Under the pieces are notes generated by a model. The model was not told the DNA's origin. It saw only the letters and a list, made by a program, of their open reading frames with translations, and searched no databases. A program made the position numbers and the translations under genes. From a virus, in the IMG/VR virus record IMGVR_UViG_3300013119_000772, positions 1 through 51,507 of that record: 51,507 nucleotides of DNA. One strand, given 5' to 3'. Within the stretch, counting starts at the first letter, position 1; every line of letters starts with the position of its first letter. Shown here one piece after another: positions 32,037 to 50,918 of this stretch.

Positions 32037-32549
32037 ATGTCCAGATGGGGAAAACCAAGAAAAAACGTCAGGAGAATCGACCCACGATACTTTATGGATG
32101 AGAAGGCAGAAGTAATCAAGGAAGAAAAAGAAGTCACGCGCATGAAGGAGATTGCTGGCGTAGGCGCCGGCGCACCGTCGCCCTCCGCACGTCGAACCCC
32201 ACGATTACAAACTCGCGAACCTGACATGACACAAGCACAAGAGCTTGCTCAAGTCCTCGCCCAAAGTCCGGCAGTCATGGCTGCTGTACAACAGGCAGCG
32301 AAGGATCCCGAAGTCCAAGCCGCTGCGCAGGAAGGTGCAGCGGAGGCAGACGCAATGCAAGAAGGCGACGGGGTGCTTGGGGGTAATCCATTATCGGATG
32401 CAGCCCTAGCTACCGGACTCGGCGCCGGCGGAATCATGATGATCGGCGCTGCAGCAGTCGCCACGCCGGCAGTATTTGCGCTGGGATTAACCGGAGGCGT
32501 GGCGTTAATGGCAATCGGAATATTAGTTAGCCAGATCGTCGAACAGTAG
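32037..32549 (+). CDS. Class C-tagged protein with glycine-rich membrane hairpin
   Basis: The protein has 170 residues. The N-terminal 25 residues (RRIDPRYFMDEKAEVIKEE) nearly repeat those of the 40353 protein, while the bodies differ. Residues about 65-115 are Ala/Gln/Glu-rich helix (AVMAAVQQAAKDPEVQAAA). The last 50 are two hydrophobic Gly/Ala-rich segments (TGLGAGGIMMIGAAAVATPA and FALGLTGGVALMAIGILVSQ) that look like a membrane-inserting hairpin with glycine-zipper spacing. A membrane-active cargo or lysis/entry protein is conceivable, but no family is recognised. An AAGGAGAAC site precedes ATG. It is followed by the short class A gene. Confidence 0.6.
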   Translation: MSRWGKPRKNVRRIDPRYFMDEKAEVIKEEKEVTRMKEIAGVGAGAPSPSARRTPRLQTREPDMTQAQELAQVLAQSPAVMAAVQQAAKDPEVQAAAQEGAAEADAMQEGDGVLGGNPLSDAALATGLGAGGIMMIGAAAVATPAVFALGLTGGVALMAIGILVSQIVEQ

Positions 32550-32564: not shown

Positions 32565-32705
32565 GTGAAAATCACCAAATCCCGACTTAAAGATATTATC
32601 GAAGAAGAGCTTAGTAATTATTTGTCCAACATATACAAATGGTGCCCCTCGGGAAGCAAATGTTCTCCGGAGAAGAAAAAGACAAAGTGGTGGAAAGGAA
32701 GATGA
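32565..32705 (+). CDS. Short class A-tagged protein (46 residues)
   Basis: The gene uses GTG with AAGGAAT 8 bases upstream. The first 18 residues (VKITKSRLKDIIEEELSN) are a clear class A tag. The remainder is a short basic, Trp-rich tail with two Cys (KWCPSGSKCSPEE, then KWWKGR). The stop overlaps the next ATG (ATGA), and the next protein starts with the same tag, which supports it as a real gene. It is a near-minimal tag plus Cys tail and could be a substrate or plug for whatever reads the tag. Function unknown. Confidence 0.65.
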   Translation: MKITKSRLKDIIEEELSNYLSNIYKWCPSGSKCSPEKKKTKWWKGR

Positions 32706-33616
32706 AGATCACAAAAACGCAGCTTAAACAAATCATCAAAGAAGAGCTAAGTTCGATAGAGGATCTTGAAGCCCGGCTTGCCGGCATGGATGCGCGCAGA
32801 GACGACGACACTCAGAAAGTCAAACACAGAGACGCTAGAGACGAGCTAAATGAAATAGCCCGAACCCTACAACAAATGTTTGAGTTGTCAAACCTTATGG
32901 TGCAGAAGAAGTCAGAACACTTTCAGAACACAACTGTTTATGGGTTACCCATCCGAGAACAAGGTGCCCTTAAGGAGTTGGCTGATATTACTAGAGAATA
33001 CGCCAAGCATGTAAAAGGTGCCGAATCAGAGCCAGTGACTGAAGGTCGAGGATCTGGGCATTCTGAAGTCTTAAGGCATACAAACGATGCAGTCGAGCGT
33101 ATAATTAAGAAGGTTGGCTCACTAGGAGATGAGCTTGTATCCGGCGCCACTCGCGGAGGACCGTACGAGAGGATGCCAGTTGACATGTATATAGATGGCT
33201 TCGACAACTACGACGAACCCCGAAAAGTGCTCAGAGAACAAGCATTAAAATTGCGATTCGCGATTGAATATGGTTTAGATCGCCCGGTACCACCCGGGAT
33301 TAGAGATAGGCTTAAAAAAGAGATCAAATCGGGATTCCTTAGTAATATGCGCGGACTTAAATCAACATATAGAGAACACATGCTGAAGATCGTTAAAGAG
33401 GAAGTCGAAGCCGCACTGGAGGAGAAAAAGATGCAAGAAGCCCCCTCAGAAGAAAAGGATGATTGGATCCAAGATGCAGAAAAAGATATTGAAAAGCGCG
33501 GCACGGAAGGTGTCTGCACCGGCGATAAGTTTGGTGGACCAACGTGCAAGCCGGGAACGAAGAGATATAATCTAGCCAAAACATTCCGCAAGATGGCAAA
33601 GGACAAAAAGAAATGA
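32702..33616 (+). CDS. Class A-tagged protein with C-terminal Cys module
   Basis: The protein has 304 residues. I place the start at ATG 32702 because the tag MKITKTQLKQIIKEELSS begins there. That ATG overlaps the previous stop, and a GGAAAGGAAG site precedes it; an in-frame ATG at 32639 would add 21 unrelated residues. The middle is charged and helical (coiled-coil-like, residues 20-110). A second tag-like helix occurs near residue 235 (LKIVKEEVEAALEE). The C-terminus is a basic module with two Cys (GVCTGDKFGGPTCKPGTKRY, then NLAKTFRKMAKDKK). No enzyme family is recognised. It overlaps the next class A gene by 4 bases. Confidence 0.7.
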   Translation: MKITKTQLKQIIKEELSSIEDLEARLAGMDARRDDDTQKVKHRDARDELNEIARTLQQMFELSNLMVQKKSEHFQNTTVYGLPIREQGALKELADITREYAKHVKGAESEPVTEGRGSGHSEVLRHTNDAVERIIKKVGSLGDELVSGATRGGPYERMPVDMYIDGFDNYDEPRKVLREQALKLRFAIEYGLDRPVPPGIRDRLKKEIKSGFLSNMRGLKSTYREHMLKIVKEEVEAALEEKKMQEAPSEEKDDWIQDAEKDIEKRGTEGVCTGDKFGGPTCKPGTKRYNLAKTFRKMAKDKKK

Positions 33617-33951
33617 AGATTACAAAAGAACAATTGCGTAAGATTATCGCGGAAGAGGTCGCCAATGAAGGCGTCGTGAAAAAGCCTTTCGATGACTCCA
33701 TGATCACTCACGATGATTATGAGCAGTCTGACGAGCCTTCTCGCGACGATACTGGCGAGCCTCCTCTTACACAACGATCACAACGCAAACTTAACCACAA
33801 TCATATGCTGGCGAGAATTAACGACGCAAAGCTTTACCTTCAACAACAAGGCGATCCAGTAGCGTCAGAGCTTTCTCAAGAGTTAGATCAGGTAATATAC
33901 AGCATGGAACTGTTAAGTGATTATTTTATGGGCGATATGCCCTCTGAGTAA
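33613..33951 (+). CDS. Class A-tagged small acidic protein
   Basis: The 112-residue protein starts MKITKEQLRKIIAEEVANEG. The tag is followed by a hydrophilic, Asp/Glu/Ser/Pro-rich linker (residues 25-60) and a helical C-terminal part (HMLARINDAKLYLQQQGDPV, then LDQVIYSMELLSDYF) that looks like a compact two- or three-helix domain. ATG overlaps the previous stop. It ends just before the promoter of the Mre11-Rad50 fusion. Function unknown. Confidence 0.65.
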   Translation: MKITKEQLRKIIAEEVANEGVVKKPFDDSMITHDDYEQSDEPSRDDTGEPPLTQRSQRKLNHNHMLARINDAKLYLQQQGDPVASELSQELDQVIYSMELLSDYFMGDMPSE

Positions 33952-33967
33952 TGGCACAAAAAAATAC

Positions 33968-33996
33968 TTGACAGCCTCTACTGAACAAGATATACT
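33968..33996 (+). promoter_or_regulatory. Sigma70-type promoter for the Mre11-Rad50 fusion
   Basis: A perfect TTGACA (33968-33973), a 17-base spacer and TATACT (33991-33996; 5/6) make this the strongest promoter in the window. The start would be near 34003, about 30 bases before the TTG start codon. The -10 box and start point lie inside a large dyad. Confidence 0.78.
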
Positions 33997-34010
33997 TGTA
34001 TAGTAGAGGC
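33974..34010 (+). promoter_or_regulatory. Dyad-symmetric putative operator overlapping the promoter
   Basis: Outer arms GCCTCTACT (33974-33982) and AGTAGAGGC (34002-34010) are perfect inverted repeats. Inner arms ACAAG (33985-33989) and CTTGT (33995-33999) are also perfect, leaving only GA/AT mismatched and a 5-base ATATA centre. It spans the spacer, -10 box and start point. Transcription would begin within the right arm, so the RNA cannot form the hairpin. A DNA-binding site for a dimeric repressor or activator fits better. Confidence 0.6.
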
Positions 34011-34032
34011 ACATTTGTGCTCGGAGGGAAGT

Positions 34033-37000
34033 TTGAAGTTTGCACACATCAGTGACACTCATATCAAAAATTTGAAGTATCACTACGAATATAGAATTGT
34101 ATTCGAACAATTATACCAGACACTGCGAGAGCAGGAAGTCGATTACATCGTTCATTGCGGAGATATCGCACACACAAAGACACAGATCTCACCAGAGTTT
34201 GTGGAAATGTGTTCTGATTTCTTCCGCAGTTTAGCGGAGATTGCACCCACATATATTATATTGGGCAACCACGATGGCAATCTAAAGAATAGTAGTCGCC
34301 AAGACGCATTGACGCCGATTGTAGATGCGTTAAACTTGCCAGCTCTGCATCTGCTCAAAGAATCTGGCGAAACCCACATAGACGATAAGTTCTGTTTGAA
34401 TGTGCTTTCAGTCTTTGATCGAGATAATTGGACAAAGCCAAGCGATACTGATAAAATCAACATCGCCCTGTATCACGGCTCAATCAGCAACTGTAAGACT
34501 GACATGAACTGGACAATGAGAAATGGCGAAGATACTCTAACTATCTTTGAAGACTTTGATTTCGCCATGCTCGGCGATATTCACCGTCGTCAATATTTAG
34601 ATGAAGTAGGTCGCGTTTGGTATGCCGGCTCAACTGTACAGCAGAATCATGGCGAAACAAATGATAAGGGGATTCTCATCTGGGATATCCAGTCAAAGGA
34701 TGATTGGGAAATCGAGCCCATTGTGCTTAAGAATCCAAAGCCATTCTTTACAATTCCTTTAACGATGAAGGGGCGCATGCCACGCAAGATTGATGTGCCA
34801 ACCGGCGCTCGTCTGCGCTTGGTGAGCAACAACAATCTTCCGCTCAATGTGATGAAGCGCGCAATGGATATCGCCAAACACCGATTCAAACCGGAGAGCA
34901 TCTCGTTTTTGAACAGAGCCACCGGTGAACGCGGAAATGTTGAAGATATTACAGACGGACTCAAGACCGAGAACTTGCGAGATCCAAAGATTCAGGAAGA
35001 ACTTATCGATGAGTACCTTAAGGACTATCAGGTGCCCTCTGAGACGCTCGAAAAAGTTTATGAACTCAATCGGGCTTACAACAAAATTATTGAGGAGACA
35101 GAGGAAGTCTCGCGCAATGTAAACTGGAAACTTAAGACCTTTGAGTTTGACAATCTGTTTAATTATGGAACAGACAATTCAATTAATTTTGAAAATATGG
35201 GTGGTATCATCGGCATCTTTGGAAAGAACTTTTCCGGAAAGAGTTCTGTGATTGATGCTGCATTATATACTTTGTTTAATACGACGTCCAAGAACGAACG
35301 CAAAAACTTAAACGTCATTAATCAGAACAGAGATTCATGCGCAGGCAAGCTCACTATCGAGTCAAACAATAAGGTCTATACGGTTGAAAGGAAATCAGAG
35401 AAGTACGTTAAGAGGCTTAAGGGCGAGGAAACCCTAGAAGCCAAAACCGATTTGAATTTTGAAGTATATGATCGCATCACCGAAGAAACAACATCTCTGA
35501 ACGGAACAACGCGAAATCAGACAGATGCAATTATCAGAAAGCATTTTGGTTCTATCGATGATTTCATGGTATCTTCGCTAGCCTCGCAGCATGGTGCGTT
35601 AGCATTTATTGATGAGGGCTCTACTCGACGTAAAGAGATCATTGCTAAGTTCTTGGACCTGGAGATTTTTGAAAAGAAGTTTAGGATGTCCAAGGAAGAC
35701 TCGGTAGAAGCCAAAGTCTTGATTAAGAAGCACGAAGACCGAGACTATGGGGCAGACATCACCGCCGCCACGAAGGAGTTGAATAAGTATCAGAACAAAT
35801 CAGAGAAGAACAAGAGCCTCTGTGAATCCTTGCGTATTAAGCTTAATACATTGACGGATGTTGTGCGCTTATTGGAAGAACAAATCAAAGCGACTCCCTC
35901 GGAAGTGGTGGACATTACTAACTTGCGCAAAGAGCACAAAAAGAAAGTTAATTCTATTGTTGCTTTGGGCGAAACAATCAAAGAACAATCGCAGTTCATA
36001 TCTCTCAAGAGCGAGGAAATCGCGGCAACCGAGAAGCTACTCGGCGCGATAGATCACCAGAAGAACCTTGAGAATAAGTTGTCGATTGAGAAATTAGATG
36101 AAACGATTGCCTCGTTAAATCAAGAACTAGAGAGTATCGTTAAGAAACAGAAGCTGCTAGAGGGAATCCCGTGCGGTGATTCGTTCCCAACGTGCAAGTT
36201 TATTAGAGATGCACACGTCTCAGTTGCCACAAGGGATATTGCAGCTAACGAGCGCGATAAGTCCATAGAAGCCCGCAGCGCATTAAATCCCGAAGAAATC
36301 GAGTTGGAGATTGAAGAACACAACGCTTTACAAATAAAGTCTTTAAATTTTGAAAAAGAGATTTCTGAGTTGAAGCTTAAGCGAGAGCGCAACAAGGCTA
36401 CAAAATCTAAGATAGAATTATCTTTGAAAGATATTACTAATCAAATTAAGGAATACGAAGAAAATAAAGAAGCAATTGAGAATCTTGAGAAACTTATAAA
36501 GGAAAAAGATAAGCACCAAAAAGACATGAACAGTAAGCAGAATGAGATAACGACTTGCGAACAAGAGACTTTAGATATCGTTAAACTCGTTGGTTCTTGC
36601 GAACAAAAGATTGAAAACTTGCGAGAGCAACAAACTGAATACAAAGAACTACAGAACTCATATGCAGCCTACGATCTGTTTATGCAGTGCATGCACCCAA
36701 ACGGAATTGCATACGATGTGATTAAAAAGAAGATTCCTGTTATCAATCAAGAGATAGCGAAGGTGTTGGCAAATATTGTAGATTTTGAAATTTTCTTTGA
36801 GAGTTCTGGTAATAAGTTTGACATCTTTATCAAGCACCCTCTATACGACGAGCGCCCTATTGAAATGGCGTCTGGCGCAGAGAAAACCATGGCGGCGATG
36901 GCAATTCGTTTGGCTCTTCTGAGTGTCTCTTCACTGCCCAAAAGCGACTTATTCATCCTCGACGAGCCCGGCACAGCATTAGATGAAGAAAATATGGAAG

Positions 37001-37140
37001 GTTTTATTAGGATCTTAGAACTAATTAAAGTGTATTTTAAGAACGTTTTGTTGATCTCGCACCTTGATTCGCTCAAAGACTGTGTTGACATGCAAATTGT
37101 AATTGAAAAGAAAAATGGATATGCAAGAGTAAACCAATAA
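34033..37140 (+). CDS. Fused Mre11-Rad50 (gp47-gp46, SbcD-SbcC) recombination nuclease
   Basis: The 1035-residue single protein starts at TTG 34033 with GGAGGGA upstream and reads MKFAHISDTHIKN. Residues 1-330 are the Mre11/SbcD phosphoesterase: Asp8/His10, HCGD (Asp44), GNHD (78-81), YHGS (His148), GDIH (181-184). Residues about 320-360 look like the Rad50-binding helices. Residues 365-1035 are a Rad50/SbcC ATPase: Walker A GKNFSGKSS (397-405), long coiled coil, a central CGDSFPTC (Cys714, Cys721) in place of the usual CPxC hook, signature SGAEKTMAAMA (about 946), Walker B LFILDEPGTAL (about 975) and H-loop LISHLDS. T4 makes gp47 and gp46 separately for end resection and host DNA degradation. 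All catalytic motifs look intact. Confidence 0.9.
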   Translation: MKFAHISDTHIKNLKYHYEYRIVFEQLYQTLREQEVDYIVHCGDIAHTKTQISPEFVEMCSDFFRSLAEIAPTYIILGNHDGNLKNSSRQDALTPIVDALNLPALHLLKESGETHIDDKFCLNVLSVFDRDNWTKPSDTDKINIALYHGSISNCKTDMNWTMRNGEDTLTIFEDFDFAMLGDIHRRQYLDEVGRVWYAGSTVQQNHGETNDKGILIWDIQSKDDWEIEPIVLKNPKPFFTIPLTMKGRMPRKIDVPTGARLRLVSNNNLPLNVMKRAMDIAKHRFKPESISFLNRATGERGNVEDITDGLKTENLRDPKIQEELIDEYLKDYQVPSETLEKVYELNRAYNKIIEETEEVSRNVNWKLKTFEFDNLFNYGTDNSINFENMGGIIGIFGKNFSGKSSVIDAALYTLFNTTSKNERKNLNVINQNRDSCAGKLTIESNNKVYTVERKSEKYVKRLKGEETLEAKTDLNFEVYDRITEETTSLNGTTRNQTDAIIRKHFGSIDDFMVSSLASQHGALAFIDEGSTRRKEIIAKFLDLEIFEKKFRMSKEDSVEAKVLIKKHEDRDYGADITAATKELNKYQNKSEKNKSLCESLRIKLNTLTDVVRLLEEQIKATPSEVVDITNLRKEHKKKVNSIVALGETIKEQSQFISLKSEEIAATEKLLGAIDHQKNLENKLSIEKLDETIASLNQELESIVKKQKLLEGIPCGDSFPTCKFIRDAHVSVATRDIAANERDKSIEARSALNPEEIELEIEEHNALQIKSLNFEKEISELKLKRERNKATKSKIELSLKDITNQIKEYEENKEAIENLEKLIKEKDKHQKDMNSKQNEITTCEQETLDIVKLVGSCEQKIENLREQQTEYKELQNSYAAYDLFMQCMHPNGIAYDVIKKKIPVINQEIAKVLANIVDFEIFFESSGNKFDIFIKHPLYDERPIEMASGAEKTMAAMAIRLALLSVSSLPKSDLFILDEPGTALDEENMEGFIRILELIKVYFKNVLLISHLDSLKDCVDMQIVIEKKNGYARVNQ

Positions 37141-37152
37141 GGAGTCAACAGC

Positions 37153-37683
37153 ATGAAAATTACCAAATCGCAGCTTCGAAGCGTAATCAGAGAAGAAATA
37201 GAAAACACCGTCGATGAGGGTTTTGTGGACTCTATCAAGGGCGCCCTCGGTCTTGGCGGCAAGAAAGCAGCCCCAGCAGCCGATCCAATGGCAAATGTCC
37301 CAGAAGATGAGCGCGAAGACTATGAAGAATTTCGTAGTGGAGGCGCCGCCGGTCAATTCAAGTGGGAAGATGCCCGAGGACAGAACTTCGACGATACGAG
37401 TTCATATGAGGCTTACCAGGACTTCTTAAAATGGAGAACCAAGCATGTAGCTGACTCCGAACAACATCGACAGGCTCAATGGGATATTGAGCAAGCCAGG
37501 AAGAAGCGCGGCTCTGGAAGATCGTCGTCATCGTCGTCGTCGTATCGACGTGATAAATCCCCTGCCCATCGCGCATCCAGCGCTGTTGGTTCATCTAACC
37601 TTGCTTACGGCGAATCCATAGAGAAGATTAAGGACATTATTAGAGAAGTGCTACAAGAGATTCAAGGAGATAAAAAACAGTGA
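37153..37683 (+). CDS. Class A-tagged protein with Ser-rich linker
   Basis: The 176-residue protein begins MKITKSQLRSVIREEIENTV. The middle (residues about 50-115) is charged and aromatic (DEREDYEEFRSGG, then YEAYQDFLKWRTKH). Residues about 120-145 form a Ser/Arg/Lys linker including seven Ser in a row encoded by a TCG/TCA microsatellite (37521-37541). The final 20 residues (IEKIKDIIREVLQEIQGD) are a second helix resembling the tag, so the protein has tag-like helices at both ends. An AAGGAG site precedes ATG. Its stop overlaps the GTG of the ParB-like gene. Function unknown. Confidence 0.65.
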   Translation: MKITKSQLRSVIREEIENTVDEGFVDSIKGALGLGGKKAAPAADPMANVPEDEREDYEEFRSGGAAGQFKWEDARGQNFDDTSSYEAYQDFLKWRTKHVADSEQHRQAQWDIEQARKKRGSGRSSSSSSSYRRDKSPAHRASSAVGSSNLAYGESIEKIKDIIREVLQEIQGDKKQ

Positions 37684-38705
37684 AACTTTTAATGGAAAAC
37701 TGGCGTAAATTTGTTAATGAACAAGAAGAAGCCGCACAACAAGGATTTGCCCAAATAACTCCCGATACTAATATTGGAGCCGTCAAGGCTGATGAACTCT
37801 GGAGGCAGCTTGTGTCCGGACAGGAGAGTCCGCTCTATAATGCGATGAAAAATGCCACTGGCTGGGCAAGCGGCGTCTTGGGCACCCCAGAACAAGTTAA
37901 ACAAAGGTTTGGGCAGATTGGACAAGAAGCCTTCATAGCGAGAGTTCAACAAGTTCAAAAACTGATCTCTACAGCAAAAACAGCTAAATTTAATATGCCT
38001 GCTCTGGAGGGCGGAGACGCCGATGCAGTAGTAGATGCACTAAGCGATCAAGATGGCGCCTTGGGAGTTGATCTAAGTTCGAAATTTGCGAACCAAATCG
38101 AAAGCTTTAAAGAGTGGTGGGAGGCACTACCCGAGCCGATTAAACAGATGTACGAAGCAGGGAAGATCCCATCTGTAGAACAAGTACAGCAAGCAACCCA
38201 ACAGACCCCCCAACAAAACGTCAGTGAAGACAAGTTTCCACGATTTGGAAAAGGTCCAATGCCCGGCGCCCCCGCTGTTGGAGAAAAAGAACAAATCAAT
38301 CTTAAAAATATTAAGGGCGCCGCATTGGCGTTCTTAACCAAAGGGATGCTCGACGGCGCGCCGGGTGACGCTGTAGCCGTTGAAAAAGACGCCGGCGCCA
38401 CAAACTCAAAAATGATTCCAACGCAAAGTAATATTTTGGCAGCTAAGTCACTATTATTTGCATACAACAATCCAGCAAAACAACTCAAAGATATGGGCGG
38501 AGCCTTTGTCACTAGTGATGGAAAGATTCTCGACGGTCACCATCGTTGGTCAGGCGCCCTTATCGGTACCGGTGGTGCACTTCAGCATACCGGCGTTCAT
38601 ATTGTTAAGGCGCCAGCCGATGCAGTCATCCCTCTTTTGGTTACGGTAGGGAACGCACTTGGTCGCCAGCAAAAGGGTCCCAATCCCGAAGACGAAAACC
38701 AGTAA
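37680..38705 (+). CDS. Class B-tagged ParB/sulfiredoxin-fold protein
   Basis: The protein has 341 residues. GTG 37680 (AGGAG 10 bases upstream, GTGA overlap) gives MKLLMENWRKFVNEQEE, a class B tag. Residues about 20-170 are helical. A Gln-rich linker follows, and residues about 205-330 carry a ParB/Srx-like domain: SNILAAKSLLFAYNN, then DGKILDGHHRWSGALI with the DGHHR motif at about 285-289, where this fold binds nucleotide. Members include ParB CTPases, nucleases and kinases; which activity applies cannot be told. The gene sits directly before the FtsZ-like gene (15-base gap). Tag plus enzyme fold suggests a packaged effector, or a partner of the filament protein. Confidence 0.7.
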   Translation: MKLLMENWRKFVNEQEEAAQQGFAQITPDTNIGAVKADELWRQLVSGQESPLYNAMKNATGWASGVLGTPEQVKQRFGQIGQEAFIARVQQVQKLISTAKTAKFNMPALEGGDADAVVDALSDQDGALGVDLSSKFANQIESFKEWWEALPEPIKQMYEAGKIPSVEQVQQATQQTPQQNVSEDKFPRFGKGPMPGAPAVGEKEQINLKNIKGAALAFLTKGMLDGAPGDAVAVEKDAGATNSKMIPTQSNILAAKSLLFAYNNPAKQLKDMGGAFVTSDGKILDGHHRWSGALIGTGGALQHTGVHIVKAPADAVIPLLVTVGNALGRQQKGPNPEDENQ

Positions 38706-38720
38706 AATAAGGAATAAACA

Positions 38721-39869
38721 ATGTCTGATAACGAAAATAAAGATGACAAAAACGAATTTGATTTTCTGCCTCCCGCAGAGCCACCACCCTCCTTTAATCA
38801 GGAGAAAGACCACTATCACGAAGAAGTCGCAGCAGAGGATTTCGGCATGGTTGAGGACTTCGGTCTCCAGATGGAATATTCTGATGAAGATCTCCTCCCA
38901 GAAAACACTGCCCCTTCTTCGATTAATGTGGGCTTTGTTGGCGTTGGCGGCGGAGGCAACAAAATGGCGAACGCCTTCATTGAACTTGGATTCAACAAAA
39001 CACTGATGGTAAACTCCACAGGGAAAGACATTCCGAAGAACGTCGAAGAAGATCACGTCGTTCTTATCCCCGATAGCGACGGCATCGGAAAGAACGTCGT
39101 TTACGGCAAAGAGATTCTTTCCCAAAATGGCGCCATCGTTGAAGATGCACTTCGTATTAAGCTTGGAAAAGTCGATTGGCTTTTCGTTATGGCTGGTGGA
39201 GGCGGCGGAACCGGCAGTTCGGTAACCGCGCTGCAGCCAGTCTTCGAAAGATATATGCAATCAGTTCAGGCTTCTGGAAAAGTGGTCTATATTGTTTCTT
39301 GGCCAACCGCGCAAGAGGCACTGAACCCGACTATCGCTCGCAACGCGCTTACGCTCGTGAATGACGTTGCCCGCCATCCGCACATCGTTCTCGACAACGA
39401 ACGTGCCACACGATTACTCCGCGGCAGAATCGGCATGCTTGGCATGTATCCTGTCGCTAACACAACATTTGCTAAGTCACTTGCTCAAGTTTTAAAACTC
39501 TCCACCGAGGATTCACCGATCCAATCTTTCGATTCTAAAGATTTGGAAACTTGCTTGAGCAATAATGGCAGAGCCTTTATGGGCTCAACAATGATAAAAG
39601 ATCCAAATACAGCAAAGCTTGGATCGGTGATCCTTCATAACTGTATGAATCGTTCTGCGTGTCCGCCCCCCAAGGGGAAGGCAGGCGCCGGTTCGTTAGT
39701 GTTGGTGGTCTCGGAAGAGATGGTGGCTGACCCAAAGGTCAGTAAAAACATTGAGTCTGCAATCGCTTATGTCGGCGGTCGGTGCGAGACACTTTTCTCT
39801 GGCGTTTACGTGCGCAAGAATGTGCCCGGATTGATTGCGATACTAAGTATGAATGGATTAGCAACATGA
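38721..39869 (+). CDS. FtsZ/tubulin-superfamily GTPase
   Basis: The protein has 382 residues. After a 66-residue acidic, Pro-rich N-terminal extension, residues 68-382 follow the FtsZ order. The nucleotide-binding start is INVGFVGVGGGGNKMANAF (68-86). The tubulin signature is in WLFVMAGGGGGTGSSVT (153-169; FtsZ has GGGTGTG). A VLDNERATRLL segment matches the FtsZ IPNDRLL region. The synergy-loop equivalent is SFDSKDLETCLSNNGRAFMG, with both Asp of the DxxD pair (271, 274) that complete GTP hydrolysis in the next subunit. The C-terminal domain runs from GAGSLVLVVS to VPGLIAILSMNG. FtsZ-like filaments act in division; phage PhuZ positions phage DNA. No FtsZ-type C-terminal peptide is visible. 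An AAGGAAT site precedes ATG. Confidence 0.85.
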   Translation: MSDNENKDDKNEFDFLPPAEPPPSFNQEKDHYHEEVAAEDFGMVEDFGLQMEYSDEDLLPENTAPSSINVGFVGVGGGGNKMANAFIELGFNKTLMVNSTGKDIPKNVEEDHVVLIPDSDGIGKNVVYGKEILSQNGAIVEDALRIKLGKVDWLFVMAGGGGGTGSSVTALQPVFERYMQSVQASGKVVYIVSWPTAQEALNPTIARNALTLVNDVARHPHIVLDNERATRLLRGRIGMLGMYPVANTTFAKSLAQVLKLSTEDSPIQSFDSKDLETCLSNNGRAFMGSTMIKDPNTAKLGSVILHNCMNRSACPPPKGKAGAGSLVLVVSEEMVADPKVSKNIESAIAYVGGRCETLFSGVYVRKNVPGLIAILSMNGLAT

Positions 39870-40330
39870 ACAAACTATTTGAAAATTGGCGAAAGTACAC
39901 AAACGAAGCAGCATACGAACCCGGTCGTGCTGTTGCCGATATTGATACTGGCGAAGATTACATGAGCCCCGAAGAAATTAGGGACGAAGAGGTACAAGAC
40001 TTGGCTGACAAGTTTAATGTCGAAGCCTTCGTTGAGATTGCTAGCGATGGAAAGCCTTCTATTATAGTAAAGCACCAAGACGGCAAATTGTCAATGTATA
40101 ACGACACAGAAGAGATGTACAAAGAGTTAGCAAGCCGACAAGAAATGAATGAAGCAGCTGAACCACATTCAGCCTCTCACGTCGTTAAAAAGATGATGAA
40201 AACAGGACTAAGTGCTAAGGAAGCGCTAAAGAGTTTAACTCATGATCTTTCTGATGAAGAAGCTGAGCGTTGGCTTGAGCGCCACAAGGATGAAATGGAT
40301 AGTGCTGAACAAGATTTAGCAAGCCGATAA
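39866..40330 (+). CDS. Class B-tagged acidic protein
   Basis: The protein has 154 residues. ATG 39866 overlaps the FtsZ-like stop (ATGA) and gives MNKLFENWRKYTNEAAYEPG; an upstream in-frame ATG at 39782 would lie inside the FtsZ-like gene and hide the tag. The tag is followed by an acidic region (DIDTGEDYMSPEEIRDEE), a small alpha/beta stretch (FVEIASDGKPSIIVKHQDGK) and two C-terminal helices (VVKKMMKTGLSAKEALKSL). No known family is recognised. It is translationally coupled to the FtsZ-like gene, so the two may act together. Confidence 0.65.
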   Translation: MNKLFENWRKYTNEAAYEPGRAVADIDTGEDYMSPEEIRDEEVQDLADKFNVEAFVEIASDGKPSIIVKHQDGKLSMYNDTEEMYKELASRQEMNEAAEPHSASHVVKKMMKTGLSAKEALKSLTHDLSDEEAERWLERHKDEMDSAEQDLASR

Positions 40331-40352
40331 TAAATATAAAAGGAATAATATA

Positions 40353-40676
40353 ATGGCATTTAGAAAAAACAAGAAGTTCATTGATCCTCGTTACTTTATG
40401 GACGAGAAGACTGATATTATTAAAGAAGAGATTGAGGAGGCGCGCCTTCCTGCATGGGAACGCCCGGTCCACACACCGCCCGAAGAAGAAAGATTTACTG
40501 GCGGCTCCATTGATATTGAACCACTCTCCGATGAAGAACAAGAAGCTTCTTACGATGCCTATTACGAATTGCATAGTTTCTTGCTGGATTCGGACCTCCC
40601 CGGCAACAAACCATCAGATAAGCTACGTCACGCCCTTCGTTGGATTGCAAAATTTGAAAAGCAAGGTATGGGTTAA
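40353..40676 (+). CDS. Class C-tagged small protein
   Basis: The 107-residue protein begins MAFRKNKKFIDPRYFMDEKT, then DIIKEEIEEARL. IDPRYFMDEK and the following IKEE match the 32037 protein, although the two genes are 8 kb apart. The body is short and acidic (HTPPEEERFTGG), with a C-terminal helical part (YDAYYELHSFLLDSDLPGNK, then LRHALRWIAKFEKQG). An AAAGGAAT site precedes ATG. A class A gene follows after 4 bases. Function unknown. Confidence 0.65.
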   Translation: MAFRKNKKFIDPRYFMDEKTDIIKEEIEEARLPAWERPVHTPPEEERFTGGSIDIEPLSDEEQEASYDAYYELHSFLLDSDLPGNKPSDKLRHALRWIAKFEKQGMG

Positions 40677-40680
40677 CAAC

Positions 40681-41538
40681 ATGAAAATCACAAAATCACA
40701 ACTCAAAGAAATTATACGAGAGAATATCGACTCGCTTCCGATTGAGAATTTAATCGGCGGAATCAGCAGTCTCGTCGACGGCATGGATCCGGAGTTGGTG
40801 GGTGTTGTTTTCACCACTGTCTTCAAGGAGATGGAGGGAGGCAGTCCGCCACCCGAAACAAGTGAAGAGCCGGAAGCGACCCAACAAATTGGCTTTGATA
40901 GGGAACCTGAAGAAGTATCCAATAGAGCACCAGAGCGCATCGGCTTCGAAGAGAGCTTGATAAAAGTAATCAAAGAAGAAATGAGTACCGATTCCGCCCT
41001 TTTAAGCGCGATCAATAAATTAGCAGACAAGATTGATAACTTAGATGTTAGTGTTGATTACTTAGCCGCTTCTGTTACCGGCGAAGATCCTCTCTCTCTT
41101 GGGTATGGACAGGCAGCGTTTGGCAGAGCCGCCCGCAAGAAGAAGATTCAACCGCCGGCGGAATTAGCCGAGATCATCGAACAAGAGATCGCAGAGGCGC
41201 TAGGTACGGGCAGAATGGCTCCAGTAGCTCGCACTCTCTCTCGCGCAGGGATCGCCCAGCGCTCAGAACCAACAAGAACAGAGTTGATGAAATTAATAGC
41301 TGCCTTAGACACCGGAGACCCAGAGGAATTACAACAACTAGCCGATATGGTGGCACAACTCATGGACGCAGCTAGCGAAAATATTGAACAAGATTACGGC
41401 TTAGAAGAGGTGTCTTCCGAGAAGCAACGCCGCTGGGCTTGCGCACAAAAAGACAAGCCCGCCGATGAAAGAGCAGACAGCTTATCCGCAGCAGAGGCAG
41501 AAGAGATGTGTACATCCAAAGTGGAAGAAGACGCATGA
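40681..41538 (+). CDS. Class A-tagged protein with WACAQ/EMC Cys tail
   Basis: The protein has 285 residues. I place the start at ATG 40681 (MKITKSQLKEIIRENIDS); the open frame extends 100 codons upstream but that part overlaps the previous gene. A tag-like helix recurs near residue 88 (ESLIKVIKEEMSTDS). The middle is helical (LLSAINKLADKIDNLDVSVD). The C-terminal 40 residues (SEKQRRWACAQKDKPADERA, ending AEEMCTSKVEEDA) form a compact motif with two Cys that I have seen at the ends of other phage proteins, role unknown to me. A 43-base gap follows before the holin-like gene. Confidence 0.68.
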   Translation: MKITKSQLKEIIRENIDSLPIENLIGGISSLVDGMDPELVGVVFTTVFKEMEGGSPPPETSEEPEATQQIGFDREPEEVSNRAPERIGFEESLIKVIKEEMSTDSALLSAINKLADKIDNLDVSVDYLAASVTGEDPLSLGYGQAAFGRAARKKKIQPPAELAEIIEQEIAEALGTGRMAPVARTLSRAGIAQRSEPTRTELMKLIAALDTGDPEELQQLADMVAQLMDAASENIEQDYGLEEVSSEKQRRWACAQKDKPADERADSLSAAEAEEMCTSKVEEDA

Positions 41539-41581
41539 CCGGAAGAGGAAGGCTTAGTTTAAGCTAATAATTGGAGACAAG

Positions 41582-41779
41582 ATGATGGAATATGTACAAG
41601 GCAAACTAGACAGATTAGTCGAGAAAATGATTTCTCGGAAGTTTCTTGTATGGCTAACCGCAACAGGACTCCTCGCATTTTCAGACTTACAGTCGGGCGA
41701 CTGGGTAATTATTTCAGCAATTTACATTGGGGGTCAAACTGTCATCGATGGTATCGCTAAACTTAAGGGTGTCGCGTGA
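41582..41779 (+). CDS. Holin-like small membrane protein
   Basis: The 65-residue protein has an amphipathic charged start (KLDRLVEKMISRK) followed by two hydrophobic segments (FLVWLTATGLLAFSDL and WVIISAIYIGGQTVIDGIA) separated by SGD. This resembles the short two-span 'ISRKF...YIGxQxxxD' proteins often annotated as holins in T4-like phages. Holins permeabilise the inner membrane to time lysis. The gene is coupled to the Rz-like gene by a 4-base overlap, which supports a lysis role. No endolysin is in the window. Confidence 0.6.
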   Translation: MMEYVQGKLDRLVEKMISRKFLVWLTATGLLAFSDLQSGDWVIISAIYIGGQTVIDGIAKLKGVA

Positions 41780-42162
41780 ATTGGTCGGCAGTAATTAAAT
41801 TTGGTTTAAAGTACTGGCGAGAACTGCTGGTCGTTGGCTCCCTCCTTGCAGTTGTAATTAAGACACAGCTTGATTATCGTGCGCTTAATAAAGCGTATGA
41901 GATTTCGCAACAAAGCCTCCAAGAACAAGTAGAGGGTTTACAAAAGATTCACGAGGAAGAACTTAAGAAGCGAGACGCGGCATTGAGGAGCTACCGTACA
42001 ACTCTTGAAGAAATCGAAAGAGGCTATTTAGAATCTCAAGAAGAAGTCGAAAGATTAAAAAAACAGAAAAGAGATCGTTTAGAGAAAAGCTATTCATCGA
42101 ACCCGGAGGATTTAGCCAATGAGATTGTTAATACTTATGGCTTTGAGCGCACTGCTGAGTAA
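41776..42162 (+). CDS. Rz-like inner-membrane spanin candidate
   Basis: The protein has 128 residues, starting at GTG (GTGA overlap with the holin-like gene). One N-terminal transmembrane segment (WRELLVVGSLLAVVIKTQ, about residues 14-31) is followed by a long charged coiled coil (residues about 35-105: EISQQSLQEQVEGLQKIHEE, then LEEIERGYLESQEEVERLKK). This type II membrane topology and size match i-spanins, which fuse inner and outer membranes after wall degradation. The next gene starts inside it in another frame with a perfect GGAGGA site, like the classic Rz/Rz1 arrangement. The call rests on topology and context, not sequence identity. Confidence 0.55.
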   Translation: MNWSAVIKFGLKYWRELLVVGSLLAVVIKTQLDYRALNKAYEISQQSLQEQVEGLQKIHEEELKKRDAALRSYRTTLEEIERGYLESQEEVERLKKQKRDRLEKSYSSNPEDLANEIVNTYGFERTAE

Positions 42163-42550
42163 TCCGGCACTCGGCGCCGACAACGGAAGGTTTACCTTTT
42201 TGGGGAAAAATCAATGCGCGCCATACGAGGGTGTCCTGTTCGACCCAAAAGCAACCGCTCACATCCTTGCGGATCGGTTTGCCTTAAATAACGATTGCGA
42301 GATAAGGATGAAATATCAACTGGATATACAAGCAGCAGACTATGATCTACAATTACAAAACTTACAGATTCGCCACGAAGCCCTTTTGCAAGAATATGTT
42401 TTACGAATTGATTCGCTAGAACGCGAGAGTGGTGCGCTAGCAAATGCTCTTAAAAAACAAAGTAAAAAAAATCCTGCACTTTGGGTGACAATTGGGGTAG
42501 CATCTGGAATAGCACTAAGCTACGGTGCATATAAGGTGTTTAATGAGTGA
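42119..42550 (+). CDS. Exported protein with C-terminal membrane anchor, spanin partner candidate
   Basis: The protein has 143 residues and overlaps the Rz-like gene by 44 bases in a different frame. A signal peptide with an Ala-x-Ala-type site (MRLLILMALSALLSNPALGA, cleavage after residue 20) is followed by NQCAPYEGVLFDP and a second Cys at NDCEIR, probably a disulfide. A helical stretch (residues 70-115) and a C-terminal hydrophobic segment (ALWVTIGVASGIALSYGAY) follow. It lacks the lipobox Cys of o-spanins, so it is not a canonical Rz1. An APxxGVL motif after a signal peptide is familiar to me from proteins near phage lysis genes. A role in envelope disruption is likely but not shown. Confidence 0.55.
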   Translation: MRLLILMALSALLSNPALGADNGRFTFLGKNQCAPYEGVLFDPKATAHILADRFALNNDCEIRMKYQLDIQAADYDLQLQNLQIRHEALLQEYVLRIDSLERESGALANALKKQSKKNPALWVTIGVASGIALSYGAYKVFNE

Positions 42551-42929
42551 GAAAGATTTAAATGAGGTAGCTGCCATTGAGCGCGCAATCGCTGCGAAAT
42601 ATGGTGAAGAAGCCATTAAAAATCCTCGGTCCGATTGGGACGAGACCAAAGAAAAAGAATATCTTCAGCAAATGAAAGAACTCTATCGCCACGCTTCTAA
42701 GAATAAAGAGTGGGAAGAAAAAGTCGACGTTAATGGGATAAAGGTTACAAAAAAACTACTTAATAGAGAATCTTTAAAAACTTGTCCTGTCTGCGGAAAT
42801 TTTCCAAAGAGTGCAATGGATGATGTCTGTCTTGTAAAATTTGATTGTTGCAATAATTGTTACATTGAATATGTAGAAGATAGAGAAGAAAGATGGAAAA
42901 AAGGCTGGAGACCAAATGAGAATCAATAA
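42543..42929 (+). CDS. Zinc-ribbon-like protein, unknown
   Basis: The 128-residue protein starts at ATG 42543 (MSEKDLNEVAAIE), overlapping the previous stop by 8 bases; an in-frame ATG at 42525 is possible. The N-terminal half is charged helix (AIAAKYGEEAIKNPRSDWDE). Residues about 85-115 have CPVC then CCNNC, four or five Cys spaced like a zinc ribbon. The protein closes with an aromatic basic tail (YVEDREERWKKGWRP). It could bind nucleic acid or be a structural zinc protein. It overlaps the next class A gene by 14 bases. Confidence 0.6.
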   Translation: MSEKDLNEVAAIERAIAAKYGEEAIKNPRSDWDETKEKEYLQQMKELYRHASKNKEWEEKVDVNGIKVTKKLLNRESLKTCPVCGNFPKSAMDDVCLVKFDCCNNCYIEYVEDREERWKKGWRPNENQ

Positions 42930-43221
42930 ATCACAACTTAAACAAATTATTAGAGAAGCAATTGCTGAGTCCGACATCGGAACTGCCGTCTCGGACCTCG
43001 GCGGCTCTGCAAAGACGACCGTCAAGAACCAAGCAGTGCAGAAGTTTATCGAGCAGGTGGGTGTGCGCCTATCGAAGGTTAGCCGCAGCGCCCAAGTAGA
43101 ATTTTTAAAAGGCTTGATGCAGACGCTTGACATCGATCCATCGCTACTAACACAAGTGAAGACCGCTGTTCAGAAAGACCAAAGAGCTGCCGCCGCAGCA
43201 CCACAAGGAGAACCCCAATAA
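42916..43221 (+). CDS. Class A-tagged helical protein
   Basis: The 101-residue protein starts MRINKSQLKQIIREAIAESD. The body is a predicted all-helical region (NQAVQKFIEQVGVRLSKVSR, then VEFLKGLMQTLDIDPSLLTQ) with an Ala/Pro/Gln-rich end. IAES gives an I-A-E|S match to the T4 gp21 cleavage consensus immediately after the tag. It overlaps the preceding gene by 14 bases and joins the next by TAATG. Function unknown. Confidence 0.65.
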   Translation: MRINKSQLKQIIREAIAESDIGTAVSDLGGSAKTTVKNQAVQKFIEQVGVRLSKVSRSAQVEFLKGLMQTLDIDPSLLTQVKTAVQKDQRAAAAAPQGEPQ

Positions 43222-43772
43222 TGGCAACAGTTTACGAAATAGTTCAAGGCTTATCACAAGCCGCAGCAAACGCATATGACGGTGCGCTTGGAGAAGATCA
43301 GTCGCCAGTAACCGTAGGCGCCCTGCGCAGAGAAGAGGGCAACGCCCTTATCGATCAGAGGGTCATGGACGGCTTCAACGTGAAGTTTTACGGAGACATG
43401 ATGTGTCTCACATATCAGTCCGATATTCAACTCAGAGAGGTTTATGCCGGCGGATTTGAAGAAGAGATTGAGCAAAGACTTGTTGATATTTCTGGATGGC
43501 TCAAGAAAGAGTATAAGAGAATCACTGGCGAATCAGTCAAGCTGACCAAAGAGGGCGAAGCTGATGTGCGCGTTGAGAACTCTTCCCGTGTTCGTTCATG
43601 GGTTGTGGCTAAGCTCCACTTTCGCGTTGGTGGTCTATCCGAGCAAATGAACGTCGACAACAGCGGCTCCACCAATCCCGTAGAGGCTAGCTGGAAAAAG
43701 TTTTTGGATCTTGGTGGCTGGAATGGCGAAGGCGGCAAGCGCCCCGACAACGATAAAAGAAAGAAAGAATAG
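43221..43772 (+). CDS. Conserved-type head/packaging-region protein, unknown
   Basis: The 183-residue protein has no tag at its start (MATVYEIVQGLSQAAANAYD). It contains a folded core with beta strands (FNVKFYGDMMCLTYQSDIQL), a helix (EEEIEQRLVDISGWLKKEYK), another beta part (ADVRVENSSRVRSWVVAKLH) and a basic disordered C-terminus (KRPDNDKRKKE). I do not recognise the family. It sits two genes before the terminase, so a packaging or head-completion function is possible. Confidence 0.6.
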   Translation: MATVYEIVQGLSQAAANAYDGALGEDQSPVTVGALRREEGNALIDQRVMDGFNVKFYGDMMCLTYQSDIQLREVYAGGFEEEIEQRLVDISGWLKKEYKRITGESVKLTKEGEADVRVENSSRVRSWVVAKLHFRVGGLSEQMNVDNSGSTNPVEASWKKFLDLGGWNGEGGKRPDNDKRKKE

Positions 43773-43775
43773 ACA

Positions 43776-44033
43776 ATGAAATTCTCCAAATTATACCTTA
43801 AGCAGATCATCAAAGAAGAGATCTCAAGTGTTTTGCGCGAGGGTCATTATCATGATATGGGCGGTGAAGACGAGACATATGATGTCCTCGATCCCCACGG
43901 AATCGAAGATATGTCCGATGCTGAGCTTGTCGACATGATGCATGTAGATGGAATGGAAGAAATGATTGTTCTGGACGGAGAAGGGGATCTTGCAAATCGC
44001 GAAGAAGTTATAGCAGCATTGAAAGATGTATGA
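43776..44033 (+). CDS. Class A-tagged small acidic protein upstream of terminase
   Basis: The 85-residue protein begins MKFSKLYLKQIIKEEISSVL. The rest is strongly acidic and His/Met-rich at the start (REGHYHDMGGEDETYDVLDP), with a helical end (EDMSDAELVDMMHVDGMEEM). Its stop overlaps the terminase ATG by 4 bases. A small-terminase identity is suggested by position only; nothing in the sequence supports it, and the tag suggests a cargo or core protein instead. Confidence 0.6.
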   Translation: MKFSKLYLKQIIKEEISSVLREGHYHDMGGEDETYDVLDPHGIEDMSDAELVDMMHVDGMEEMIVLDGEGDLANREEVIAALKDV

Positions 44034-45613
44034 CGTTCCAATTAGACAAAAAACAACAAGTTAAAGAAATACTTAAATGCGGGAAGGAACCCGCTTATTT
44101 TTTAAAGACTTACGCAAGAATTTCCCATCCCATGTATGGGCTTATTTTATTTGATACTTATGATTTCCAAGACGACCTTCTTAAAGATTTTAATGATTAT
44201 CGCTTTAATGTTATTTTAAAGGCGCGCCAGTTAGGGATTTCAACAATCACTGCTGGCTATATTGTTTGGTTGATGTTGTTTCACCGTGACAAATCAATTC
44301 TTGTTATGGCGACCAAATTTGCAACAGCGGGCAACTTAGTAAAGAAGGTCAAGGGCGTTATGCGCAACTTGCCAGATTGGCTTAAGATCGCCACAATTGA
44401 CGTGGATAACCGGACTTCCTTTGAGCTTTCTAATGGGTCATCTATCAAAGCAGCGTCTACCTCTGGTGATGCCGGTCGTTCTGAGGCACTGTCTTTGCTG
44501 GTTCTTGATGAGGCTGCACACATTGAAGGACTTGAAGAACTGTGGACCGGTCTGTATCCTACACTATCAACTGGTGGGCGATGCATAGCACTTTCAACGC
44601 CCAACGGGGTCGGTAACTGGTTCCATAAAACATGTATGGATGCTGAAGGCGGCAGCAATAACTTTAACCTTACAACACTCCAGTGGGACGTTCACCCCGA
44701 GCGTGATGAAGCTTGGTATAAGAAAGAAACCAAGAACATGTCAAAACGCCAGATTGCACAAGAGCTTGAGTGCAATTTCAATACTTCTGGCGAGACTGTC
44801 ATAGACCCTGACTGTATGAAGTGGCTATTAGAAAATGTTAAAGAGCCAAAGCACAGAACCGGCTTTGATCGCAATTTCTGGATTTGGGAAGAATTCGATC
44901 CCACATGTAACTATCTTGCGGTGGCAGATGTTTCGCGAGGCGATGGCGCTGACTATTCAACATTACACATGATTAAATTAGAGACGCTGGAAATCGTGGG
45001 CGAGTATCAAGGGAAGCCAACGCCCGATATGTATGCAAACTTCTTGAATCAAGTAGGGAGAGAATTTGGAAATGCGATGCTTGTAGTAGAGAACAATAAC
45101 ATCGGTTACACGGTTCTCGATAAACTCGTTGAACACGGTTATCCAAATTTGTACTACTCTATTAAGTCTACACATGAGTATATAGAGCAACATCAAGCAG
45201 AAGTTAGAAACTCTGCCGTTGCCGGGTTCACAACCTCAATGAAGACGCGCCCGCTCATCGTTGCGAAATTAGAGGAGTTTATCAGAAACAAACTAATTAA
45301 GATATATTCATCTCGCACAATTAATGAGATGAAAACTTTTATTTGGAAGAACGGTAAACCACAGGCAATGAAAGGATATCATGATGATCTCATCATGGCG
45401 CTAGCGATTGCTTGCTGGGTGAGGGACACAGCATTGCAATCAAACGCACGAGACCTAAACTATCAAAAAGCTTTTGTGAATGCCATTGTTACTTCGAAGA
45501 CTTCTATGAACACTCAAATTAACGGACAACAAGGCTACAAAAAAGATAATATTTTTGATAAAATGGGTGAAGCAAAAGAATTATACGATCAGTATAAATG
45601 GATTATTAAGTGA
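44030..45613 (+). CDS. 17: Terminase large subunit, gp17-like
   Basis: The 527-residue protein is the DNA-packaging motor, with ATPase and nuclease. The N-terminal ATPase has the shifted Walker A KARQLGIST (64-72). It lacks the usual Lys before Ser/Thr but has the early Lys/Arg found in many terminases. Walker B is LLVLDEAA (156-163). The C-terminal RNase H-like nuclease has VADVSRGDGADYS (about 303-315), LVVENNNIG (about 350) and the closing GYHDDLIMALAIA (about 450). In T4 it docks on the portal encoded here by the next gene. Its start overlaps the upstream tagged gene. No intein, intron or frameshift is visible. Confidence 0.95.
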   Translation: MTFQLDKKQQVKEILKCGKEPAYFLKTYARISHPMYGLILFDTYDFQDDLLKDFNDYRFNVILKARQLGISTITAGYIVWLMLFHRDKSILVMATKFATAGNLVKKVKGVMRNLPDWLKIATIDVDNRTSFELSNGSSIKAASTSGDAGRSEALSLLVLDEAAHIEGLEELWTGLYPTLSTGGRCIALSTPNGVGNWFHKTCMDAEGGSNNFNLTTLQWDVHPERDEAWYKKETKNMSKRQIAQELECNFNTSGETVIDPDCMKWLLENVKEPKHRTGFDRNFWIWEEFDPTCNYLAVADVSRGDGADYSTLHMIKLETLEIVGEYQGKPTPDMYANFLNQVGREFGNAMLVVENNNIGYTVLDKLVEHGYPNLYYSIKSTHEYIEQHQAEVRNSAVAGFTTSMKTRPLIVAKLEEFIRNKLIKIYSSRTINEMKTFIWKNGKPQAMKGYHDDLIMALAIACWVRDTALQSNARDLNYQKAFVNAIVTSKTSMNTQINGQQGYKKDNIFDKMGEAKELYDQYKWIIK

Positions 45614-50267: not shown

Positions 50268-50312
50268 ATGGATGCTGCAGCCCGTTAGGCGTTGCTGCAA
50301 AGGATCCTAACT

Positions 50313-50918
50313 GTGGGTCAGAAGTTACTTAGAGAATATTATGAACTCTGCGAAGGCGGCATTTGTCAAGACTTGCTGACTGAAGAAGAGAAGGCATATG
50401 TCGCTGATGGCGGCATGTACCTTACTGGAATTATTCAGAAAGCAGACACAGTTAACGGCAACGGTCGAGTTTATCCTCACAAGGTCCTCATGCGCGAGAT
50501 AAAGAACTATGAAAAATTAGTTAGCGAGCGCCGAGCTTTGGGAGAGTTGGACCACCCTGACGACTCTGTGATCAACCTTAAGAACGCGTCCCACATGATG
50601 ACCAAAGTTTGGTGGGACGGCAAAAATGTGATGGGCAAAGCCAAAGTGCTCGATACTCCGTCCGGTCAGGTCTTAAATTCCCTAGTGAAAGCCGGCGTAA
50701 GCATCGGCATTTCGTCTCGGGGAATGGGTTCTGTATCGGAATCCGCCGGCAACACAGTTGTTGAAGACGATTTCCAGCTTATCTGCTTTGATTTTGTATC
50801 TGAACCTTCCACGCCCGGCGCCTTTATGATGAAAGAAGCTAAAGGATACACCAACAGAGTGTTCACCAAAGCGGACCGCATCAACAGATTATTAAACGAG
50901 GTACTTGAAGATGAGTGA
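50313..50918 (+). CDS. 21: Prohead core protease, gp21-like
   Basis: This protein of about 201 residues begins MGQKLLREYYELCEGGICQD. I choose GTG 50313, with AAAGGA 8 bases upstream; an in-frame TTG at 50292 would add 7 residues with a poorer site. Family signatures are a KADTVNGNGRVYP stretch, the catalytic His in ALGELDHPDDS (about residue 83) and the Ser in VSIGISSRGMGSV (about residue 134), matching the U9/herpes-like serine protease fold of T4 gp21. It degrades the scaffold and trims tagged head proteins after I/L-x-E. This makes it the presumed processor of the tagged proteins in the window. It overlaps the next gene by 8 bases. Confidence 0.92.
   Translation: MGQKLLREYYELCEGGICQDLLTEEEKAYVADGGMYLTGIIQKADTVNGNGRVYPHKVLMREIKNYEKLVSERRALGELDHPDDSVINLKNASHMMTKVWWDGKNVMGKAKVLDTPSGQVLNSLVKAGVSIGISSRGMGSVSESAGNTVVEDDFQLICFDFVSEPSTPGAFMMKEAKGYTNRVFTKADRINRLLNEVLEDE

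Follow-up and report, generated by a model that had tools for sequence, protein, structure and literature searches.

A conserved N-terminal leader on otherwise unrelated proteins encoded beside a T4-type head module: a putative capsid-targeting signal of phages

Leader-bearing genes of the window

The IMG/VR virus record IMGVR_UViG_3300013119_000772, a linear stretch of 51,507 bp that has been analysed whole and is referred to here as the window, is probably a fragment rather than a full genome. It encodes seven open genes on the + strand (46-304 aa) whose products all begin with a peptide resembling MKITKxQLKxIIxEE, referred to here as the class A leader or tag (Table 1). The seven starts are identical to MKITKSQLKQIIKEE at 11-14 of 15 positions; the 35 other gene starts of the window reach at most 3 of 15, and the best internal 15-mer in those genes reaches 6 of 15. 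Past residue 16 the best BLASTP pair among the seven bodies has an E-value of 0.28, which bears out the original prediction of a near-identical start on proteins that are otherwise unrelated. Gene 32565 has a GTG start, its initial V thus being read as M, and its homologue in the locus L008 carries the same leader, with 85% identity over 46 aa.

Table 1. Positions of leaders and neighbouring genes in the window, with the leader starts of phage immuto in the last row
Feature	Position	Strand	Remarks
Class A leader 1, MKITKSRLKDIIEEEL	32565..32606	+	gene 32565-32705, 46 aa; predicted cut after E14
Class A leader 2, MKITKTQLKQIIKEEL	32702..32743	+	gene 32702-33616, 304 aa; longer open reading frame (ORF) from 32639 possible
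Class A leader 3, MKITKEQLRKIIAEEV	33613..33654	+	gene 33613-33951, 112 aa
Class A leader 4, MKITKSQLRSVIREEI	37153..37194	+	gene 37153-37683, 176 aa
Class A leader 5, MKITKSQLKEIIRENI	40681..40722	+	gene 40681-41538, 285 aa, modular
Class A leader 6, MRINKSQLKQIIREAI	42916..42957	+	gene 42916-43221, 101 aa
Class A leader 7, MKFSKLYLKQIIKEEI	43776..43817	+	gene 43776-44033, 85 aa; adjoins TerL
Class B leader protein, DPRYFMDEKAEVIKEE	32037..32549	+	170 aa
Class B leader protein, DPRYFMDEKTDIIKEE	40353..40676	+	107 aa
Class C leader protein, MENWRKFVNE	37680..38705	+	341 aa
Class C leader protein, MNKLFENWRKYTNEA	39866..40330	+	C-terminal domain follows a class A leader in L051
Internal leader-like stretch LIKVIKE in gene 40681	40957..40977	+	precedes a module found directly behind the leader in relatives
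Terminase large subunit (TerL)	44030..45613	+	phrog_2, E 7.6e-55; context gene
Portal protein	45622..47649	+	phrog_213, E 9.4e-72; context gene, query for finding relatives
Head-region protein, class C leader WRGYLLQE	48999..49928	+	near the protease
S77 prohead protease (T4 gp21 family)	50292..50918	+	phrog_207, E 2.8e-57; PF03420, E 6.7e-35; proposed leader-cleaving enzyme
Head-core-like ORF, class C start MSDWSSFKDAKKRSDAWKGFLAES	50911..51507	+	runs past the contig end
Leader starts of immuto	L083 1662, 2248, 12556, 22723; 3174, 16999, 18000; L362:1803		

Of 183 codon pairs that specify the same residue of the leader, 82 consist of different codons, from which we conclude, in agreement with the original prediction, that the leader is conserved at the protein level. 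About 110 differing pairs would be expected under independent codon choice, and the shortfall points to residual shared ancestry or codon bias, so that some shared history remains. A recent duplication of whole genes has been rejected, the bodies being unrelated by BLASTP and the codons different. An element acting at the level of DNA or RNA is disfavoured by the codon variety under fixed residues.

The shortfall in codon differences, together with the swapping of leaders between bodies described below, could also be taken as the mark of a mobile gene-start cassette, in which recombination spreads a 5' segment of DNA and the peptide itself is functionless. Such a cassette is hard to reconcile with the many codon differences within the window, with the varying codons of I12 and L8 under constant residues and with the protease-like site that marks the end of conservation, and we give it very little credence.

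Anatomy of the leader and its sharp end

In all the seven leaders of the window an I at residue 12 and an E at residue 14 are found, as anticipated by the original prediction of an end close to the I/L-x-E rule of prohead proteases. The gp21 protease of phage T4 is described as cutting after L/I-x-E (PMC9026906). Residue 4 is T, N or S in all seven leaders and residue 7 is Q or R in six of them.

The boundary of conservation has been profiled with 57 tags from the window, from loci chosen by their portal and from cultured phages, picked by their first nine residues only, so that the tail was not selected for. E14 is present in all 57 and I12 in 56, and the information per residue, 4.3 bits at residue 14, declines to 3.7, 2.6, 1.8 and 1.1 bits at residues 15, 16, 17 and 18 and stays at about 1 bit thereafter. 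In a 306-kb contig E14 is kept in 27 of 27 tags and I12 in 26 of 27, with residue 15 being E, A, S, T, M, V or N; in the contig G025, from which 17 tags remain after removal of duplicates, E14 is kept in 16 and residue 15 occurs in at least eight forms. Among 299 pooled tags E14 is found in 294, the pool being partly selected by pattern, and every one of the 299 has I, V or L at residue 12, the pool being partly selected for I12. For [IL]xE the background frequency, taken from the bodies of 11 window proteins, is about 1% per position. The net charge over residues 1-13 lies between +3 and +6 for 201 of 210 family representatives, and an AlphaFold model of the 40681 protein, which is of low confidence (mean pLDDT 62, pTM 0.24), has a helix at residues 5-17.

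An amphipathic basic helix of this kind could also serve as an uncleaved docking peptide whose single common partner lies outside the head, with I-x-E being just a part of the helix face. The partner could be a tail or baseplate part, an RNA polymerase or the FtsZ/tubulin-like protein at 38721. Points in favour of docking are the position of the tubulin-family gene within the cluster, its identity of 88-94% in marine relatives (best 14 of 30 matches) and the conservation of E15 and L/I16 in the clade of the window. The variation of residue 15 next to a nearly fixed E14 in the two jumbo contigs speaks against docking, as do the I/L-x-E end often shared by unrelated classes of leader, the recurrence of a similar site in capsid proteins and the tracking of the S77 prohead protease by the tag. 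On this balance docking is considered unlikely.

The product of 38721-39869 is a FtsZ/tubulin-family GTPase (PF00091, E 1.4e-8). In a tblastn search of 50,697 cultured phage records no match to this gene was obtained.

Association with the S77 prohead protease

The + strand of the window encodes a T4-type head module comprising TerL, portal, the genes 47633, 48450, 48999 and 49944, the S77 protease and the open ORF 50911; the capsid gene of the window phage lies beyond the end of the contig. The S77 gene lies within this module, which adjoins the leader cluster, 6.3 kb downstream of the last class A gene (43776) and on the same strand. Among the matches listed, the cultured portals nearest to that of the window come from Flavobacterium phage immuto (38%) and Microcystis phage Mel-JY01 (37%), with Rhodothermus phage RM378 (33%) ranked under one uncultured record, and these best-listed cultured portals suggest that the window phage belongs to the far-T4 branch.

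Relatives have been taken as the best 80 contigs from a search with the portal. All 8 large contigs selected in this manner encode S77, which is expected from their choice by portal. A pattern scan yielded 34 tagged contigs of at least 56 kb; when G004 and G006, both with S77, are omitted from the counts, S77 is present in 23 of 32, and in all 11 of those above 150 kb. As controls we have used 25 contigs of at least 57 kb retrieved by an exact 17-mer encoding MKITK followed by E or D, excluding G022, which was already tagged. S77 is present in 6 of these 25, two of which turned out to be tagged, both with S77. Counted by tag, with these two controls added to the 32 tagged contigs, S77 is encoded in 25 of 34 tagged as against 4 of 23 untagged large contigs (Fisher p 4e-5), with shared ancestry as a confounding factor. 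The predicted linkage of the tag to a gp21-like protease is upheld within that limit.

A search with PF07068 in nine contigs returned no match anywhere, the controls included, and is uninformative; it was replaced by a search with the capsid protein of immuto. Nine major capsid proteins (MCPs) of relatives were obtained, one of them cut off by the contig piece, from seven phage contigs and two cultured records (immuto and Mel-JY01), which represent eight phages, two of the proteins being paralogues. In all nine an A, S or T comes after [LIV][LIV][RKS]E, which lies at residues 59-61 and which the alignment puts opposite FLTE-65, the cut of T4 gp23. The variants are LLRE, VLRE, LLKE, LISE and IVSE, and the P3 residue is V in immuto and I or L in the other eight. 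Judged by its residues, the leader end I-I-[KR]-E is the same kind of site as these capsid-protein sites. Two adjoining capsid-protein genes with nearly identical starts have been identified in G025 (176287-180141, L220).

Occurrence of the leader in phages and metagenome bins

The class A leader is common among marine T4-like phages. In the best 80 portal contigs its strict form occurs in 56 copies in 32 loci, all on the strand of the portal; this count includes L002, which is a longer contig of the window phage, and nearly duplicate loci, for example L003 and L054. The core motif is found in 66 N-terminal copies in 34 loci, all on the + strand, in the window, the portal loci and three cultured phages, and the single internal copy of that set is in immuto. 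In the whole pool, which was partly chosen for this property, 322 of 324 core matches lie at a gene start. A degenerate DNA pattern for class A matches at least 119 stretches in IMG/VR as against none for one codon-permuted control pattern, by which a chance origin of the leader has been rejected; an earlier control pattern, with one match, was not used.

When 84,980 prokaryote genomes were scanned with the same degenerate pattern, the matches amounted to 8 stretches, which lie on 6 contigs from five metagenome bins. An S77 gene is encoded in two of the five bins, in one of them on the tagged contig itself (G102 C5, 305,838 bp). The tagged genes of this contig number 27 and form two dense runs, one of 20 genes (184,260-193,192) and one of 7 (211,165-213,575), all on the strand of the protease; their products, all complete, represent 26 body families. 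In G025 (293 kb) 22 tag starts are found, including one that lies in frame within another tagged ORF, and G002 and G026, whose contigs were read whole, have two tags each, so that the large contigs read contain 2-27 tags.

One tagged ORF of G025 (L214:10981-11760) has a second full in-frame class A tag at 11473, as if by fusion or in-frame overlap. NHDW01000006.1 (G102 C5) and PBIO01000025.1 are large phage-like contigs with tag arrays, placed in bins titled Methylococcaceae and Halobacteriovorax. The presence of such contigs in metagenome-assembled bacterial genomes may reflect mis-binning or may hint at the hosts.

Other leader classes and shuffling of modules

Leaders of two further classes, class B (DPRYFMDEK) and class C (xNWRKxLxE), share the cluster with class A. 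All seven members of the originally predicted set are real, but the set is incomplete: the class B proteins 32037 and 40353 and the class C proteins 37680, 39866, 48999 and 50911 belong with them. Of 25 class B rows, one of which is a doubtful internal match, 13 have [IL]xE at a common offset and 5 more have it two residues further on. The class C set consists of 26 rows kept by hand from 66 candidates and further rows, membrane proteins and unrelated starts having been dropped, and 15 of these hand-picked rows have [IL]xE at a fixed place. A class C-like start, for example MSDWSSF...WRNYLNES, is also present on the gene that follows the protease in the window and in several relatives.

The C-terminal domain of the class C protein 39866 shares 80% identity over 60 aa with the class A protein L051:3899, and by this alignment the same body is found behind different leaders. 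Modules of 40681 and 43776 directly follow the leader in some relatives and lie deeper in longer proteins in others.

A gene two places past the protease (L003:15249 and L021:15356) has a class A-like start, M[NK]K[SQ]DLK[KQ]LIKP[IL]VKE. From this start its product may possibly be a core partner or an ancestor of the leader.

Bodies of the putative cargo

The 278 complete tagged proteins group into 210 body families, 172 of which are singletons, with a median length of 109 aa and a maximum of 375 (complete proteins of at least 60 aa, single linkage, E 1e-4). In BLASTP against the pool, 30-78 match lines are obtained for each of six untagged neighbours of the window, as against 0-15 for its tagged proteins. 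Pfam searches with 150 of the 210 representatives matched 18 families, each by one member and mostly weakly.

These data bear on the alternative that the tagged proteins are components of the head core or scaffold, into which the leader builds them and in which they are degraded on maturation, no cargo being delivered. The class C leaders on the 48999 protein and on the gene after the protease are in keeping with a core role, as is the conserved gene near the protease that starts MNKSDLKKLIKPIVKE or MKKQDLKQLIKPLVKE (L003:15249 and L021:15356). Core parts would, however, be expected to be conserved, whereas the tagged bodies are highly variable and their number differs widely between contigs; one of them has pentapeptide repeats and another a FliG_C-like domain. 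A core role for the tagged proteins is accordingly regarded as improbable, more so than docking.

The tagged pentapeptide-repeat protein is encoded at L099:3606-4229 on the - strand. The pentapeptide-repeat fold occurs elsewhere in DNA-mimicking inhibitors of gyrase, and this protein is a candidate for an injected effector of gyrase or DNA binding. The tagged protein with the FliG_C-like domain, encoded at L098:117-494 (E 1.8e-10 at G080:213-398, in a search that took in 50 of 83 listed loci), could touch the flagellar motor of the host.

Potential role as a cleaved capsid-targeting leader

Based on these comparisons, the class A peptide is likely to be a capsid-targeting leader, by which cargo proteins are loaded in the head and which is cut during maturation. 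We hold this reading with fair confidence, and it draws on the leader itself and its modular use, on the fixed I/L-x-E at its end, on the S77 protease and on the similar site in the capsid proteins of relatives. The 14-residue amphipathic, net-basic N-terminal helix would bind the prohead core and thereby bring the tagged protein inside the prohead. At maturation the S77 protease of the phage would cut after E14 in I-I-[KR]-E and release the body, which would remain with the packaged DNA and probably enter the next host cell. Late expression of the tagged genes would be expected, and the cargo may act in host take-over or counter-defence. Of the original proposal of an address peptide for capsid loading, the parts that can be read from sequence (the I-x-E end, the stop of conservation, the variable bodies and the S77 linkage) are supported, and the proposal as a whole partly so.

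A number of observations weigh against a cleaved capsid-targeting leader. E15, which is not required for cleavage after E14, is well kept in the clade of the window (52 of 57), and one of the 17 starts of G025 has K at residue 14. The aromatics at residues 4 and 7 of the T4 internal protein (IP) IPIII are lacking in the leader, except for Y7 in 43776; in IPIII processing is set by residues 8 and 10 and targeting mainly by residues 4 and 7 (PMC9026906). The I/L-x-E rule is missed by 11 of the 26 class C rows, and the class C proteins 37680 and 39866 of the window have V and T rather than I/L at P3. The bodies are small, as those of T4 IPs are, but mostly acidic, with a median isoelectric point (pI) of 4.8 and 15% above 8 (n = 210); comparison ORFs, neighbours picked mechanically, have a median pI of 5.4 with 23% above 8 (n = 922). 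Literature searches returned no virion proteomics or N-terminus data for any tagged protein. S77 is present in four untagged controls, common ancestry confounding the linkage, and is lacking in 9 of the 32 tagged large contigs.

According to the original prediction, tags in genomes that lack any prohead protease would speak against it. None of the nine contigs is a clean counter-example of this sort: seven also lack a portal and a credible TerL (G021 having one weak TerL match with stops), and G035 ends within the portal gene. The ninth, G013 (125 kb, linear), encodes TerL and portal, with S77 and capsid protein undetected, and counts against the reading; in the 20 kb around its portal the gene order is different and no protease is found.

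For the majority of genes in uncultured marine phages no function is known. If the capsid-targeting reading is true, the leader would be an address, readable from the genome, for packaged and probably injected proteins among these dark genes, and would flag by sequence alone hundreds of particle-borne proteins, whose action probably falls in the opening minutes of infection. T4 IPI acts against a restriction enzyme. The few internal proteins of T4 would then represent, on a small scale, a system that is widespread, and the leader would supply packaging tags for phages beyond T4. A broader proposal is that marine T4-like and jumbo phages maintain large arsenals of effectors that travel in the virion and turn over fast, being loaded by means of a single common leader, with several interchangeable leader classes and with modules shuffled behind internal cut sites; to this we would assign an even chance.

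Relation to known systems

The class A leader resembles the capsid-targeting sequence (CTS) of T4, carried by IPI, IPII, IPIII and Alt, in being a short N-terminal peptide on otherwise unrelated, variable small proteins, in its gp21-type I/L-x-E end and in the gp21-family protease encoded in the genome. The internal proteins of T-even phages are diverse, with the CTS alone conserved (PMC3012670). The T4 sequence, MKTYQEFIAE (NC_000866), is however unlike the class A leader; its aromatics at residues 4 and 7 (MKTYQEF) are mostly absent from the leaders of the window; the putative cargo genes of a single phage are far more numerous here (27 in one contig), with several leader classes per phage; and the T4 internal proteins are called basic (PMC9026906), whereas the tagged bodies, predicted to be packaged and cleaved, are mostly acidic. 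Because the leader sequence, one T4 determinant and the size and charge of the cargo repertoire differ, the leader is kept apart from the T4 CTS as a distinct variant that would work like a CTS.

The propeptides of the T4 shell proteins have similar sites. T4 gp24 begins with MAKINELLRE-STTT, the hyphen marking the cut, and gp23 has FLTE-A at 65, to which the MCP sites of relatives are alike. The gp23 propeptide has 65 residues (PMC5694885 and PMC9026906). These propeptides belong to shell proteins; the class A leader is found on many unrelated putative cargo proteins.

In the phiKZ-like giant phages a shared N-terminus likewise occurs on diverged head proteins and a homologous prohead protease cuts after E; gp53 and gp54 of SPN3US, for instance, are identical in their first 15 residues (PMC5694885). 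Their motif is A-x-E (SPN3US) or S-x-E (phiKZ), neither of which is found among the 299 pooled class A tags, a pool partly selected for I12; several of their propeptides exceed 100 residues, and the bearers are paralogues rather than unrelated bodies.

Leaders in cultured phages

A tblastn search of cultured phages with one consensus peptide for each of the classes A, B and C gave no close match; weaker ones could escape this search, which recovers an exact 22-mer. The strict class A DNA pattern is absent from T4, RM378, Mel-JY01 and immuto. Five strings of the tag do not occur in the literature searched, no title or opening of an abstract among the matches listed names the leader, and the accessible parts of PMC4360716, on far-T4 genomes, and of PMC7198788 do not mention it. 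Titles and abstract openings likewise revealed no virion proteomics for immuto. By eye, two families of related leaders have been identified in immuto, one similar to MKKSQLRxIIKEA and the other to MENFDLKKFLVENKLT. Being cultured, with Flavobacterium sp. LMO8 as host, and having two leader families of its own, immuto is a good bench system.

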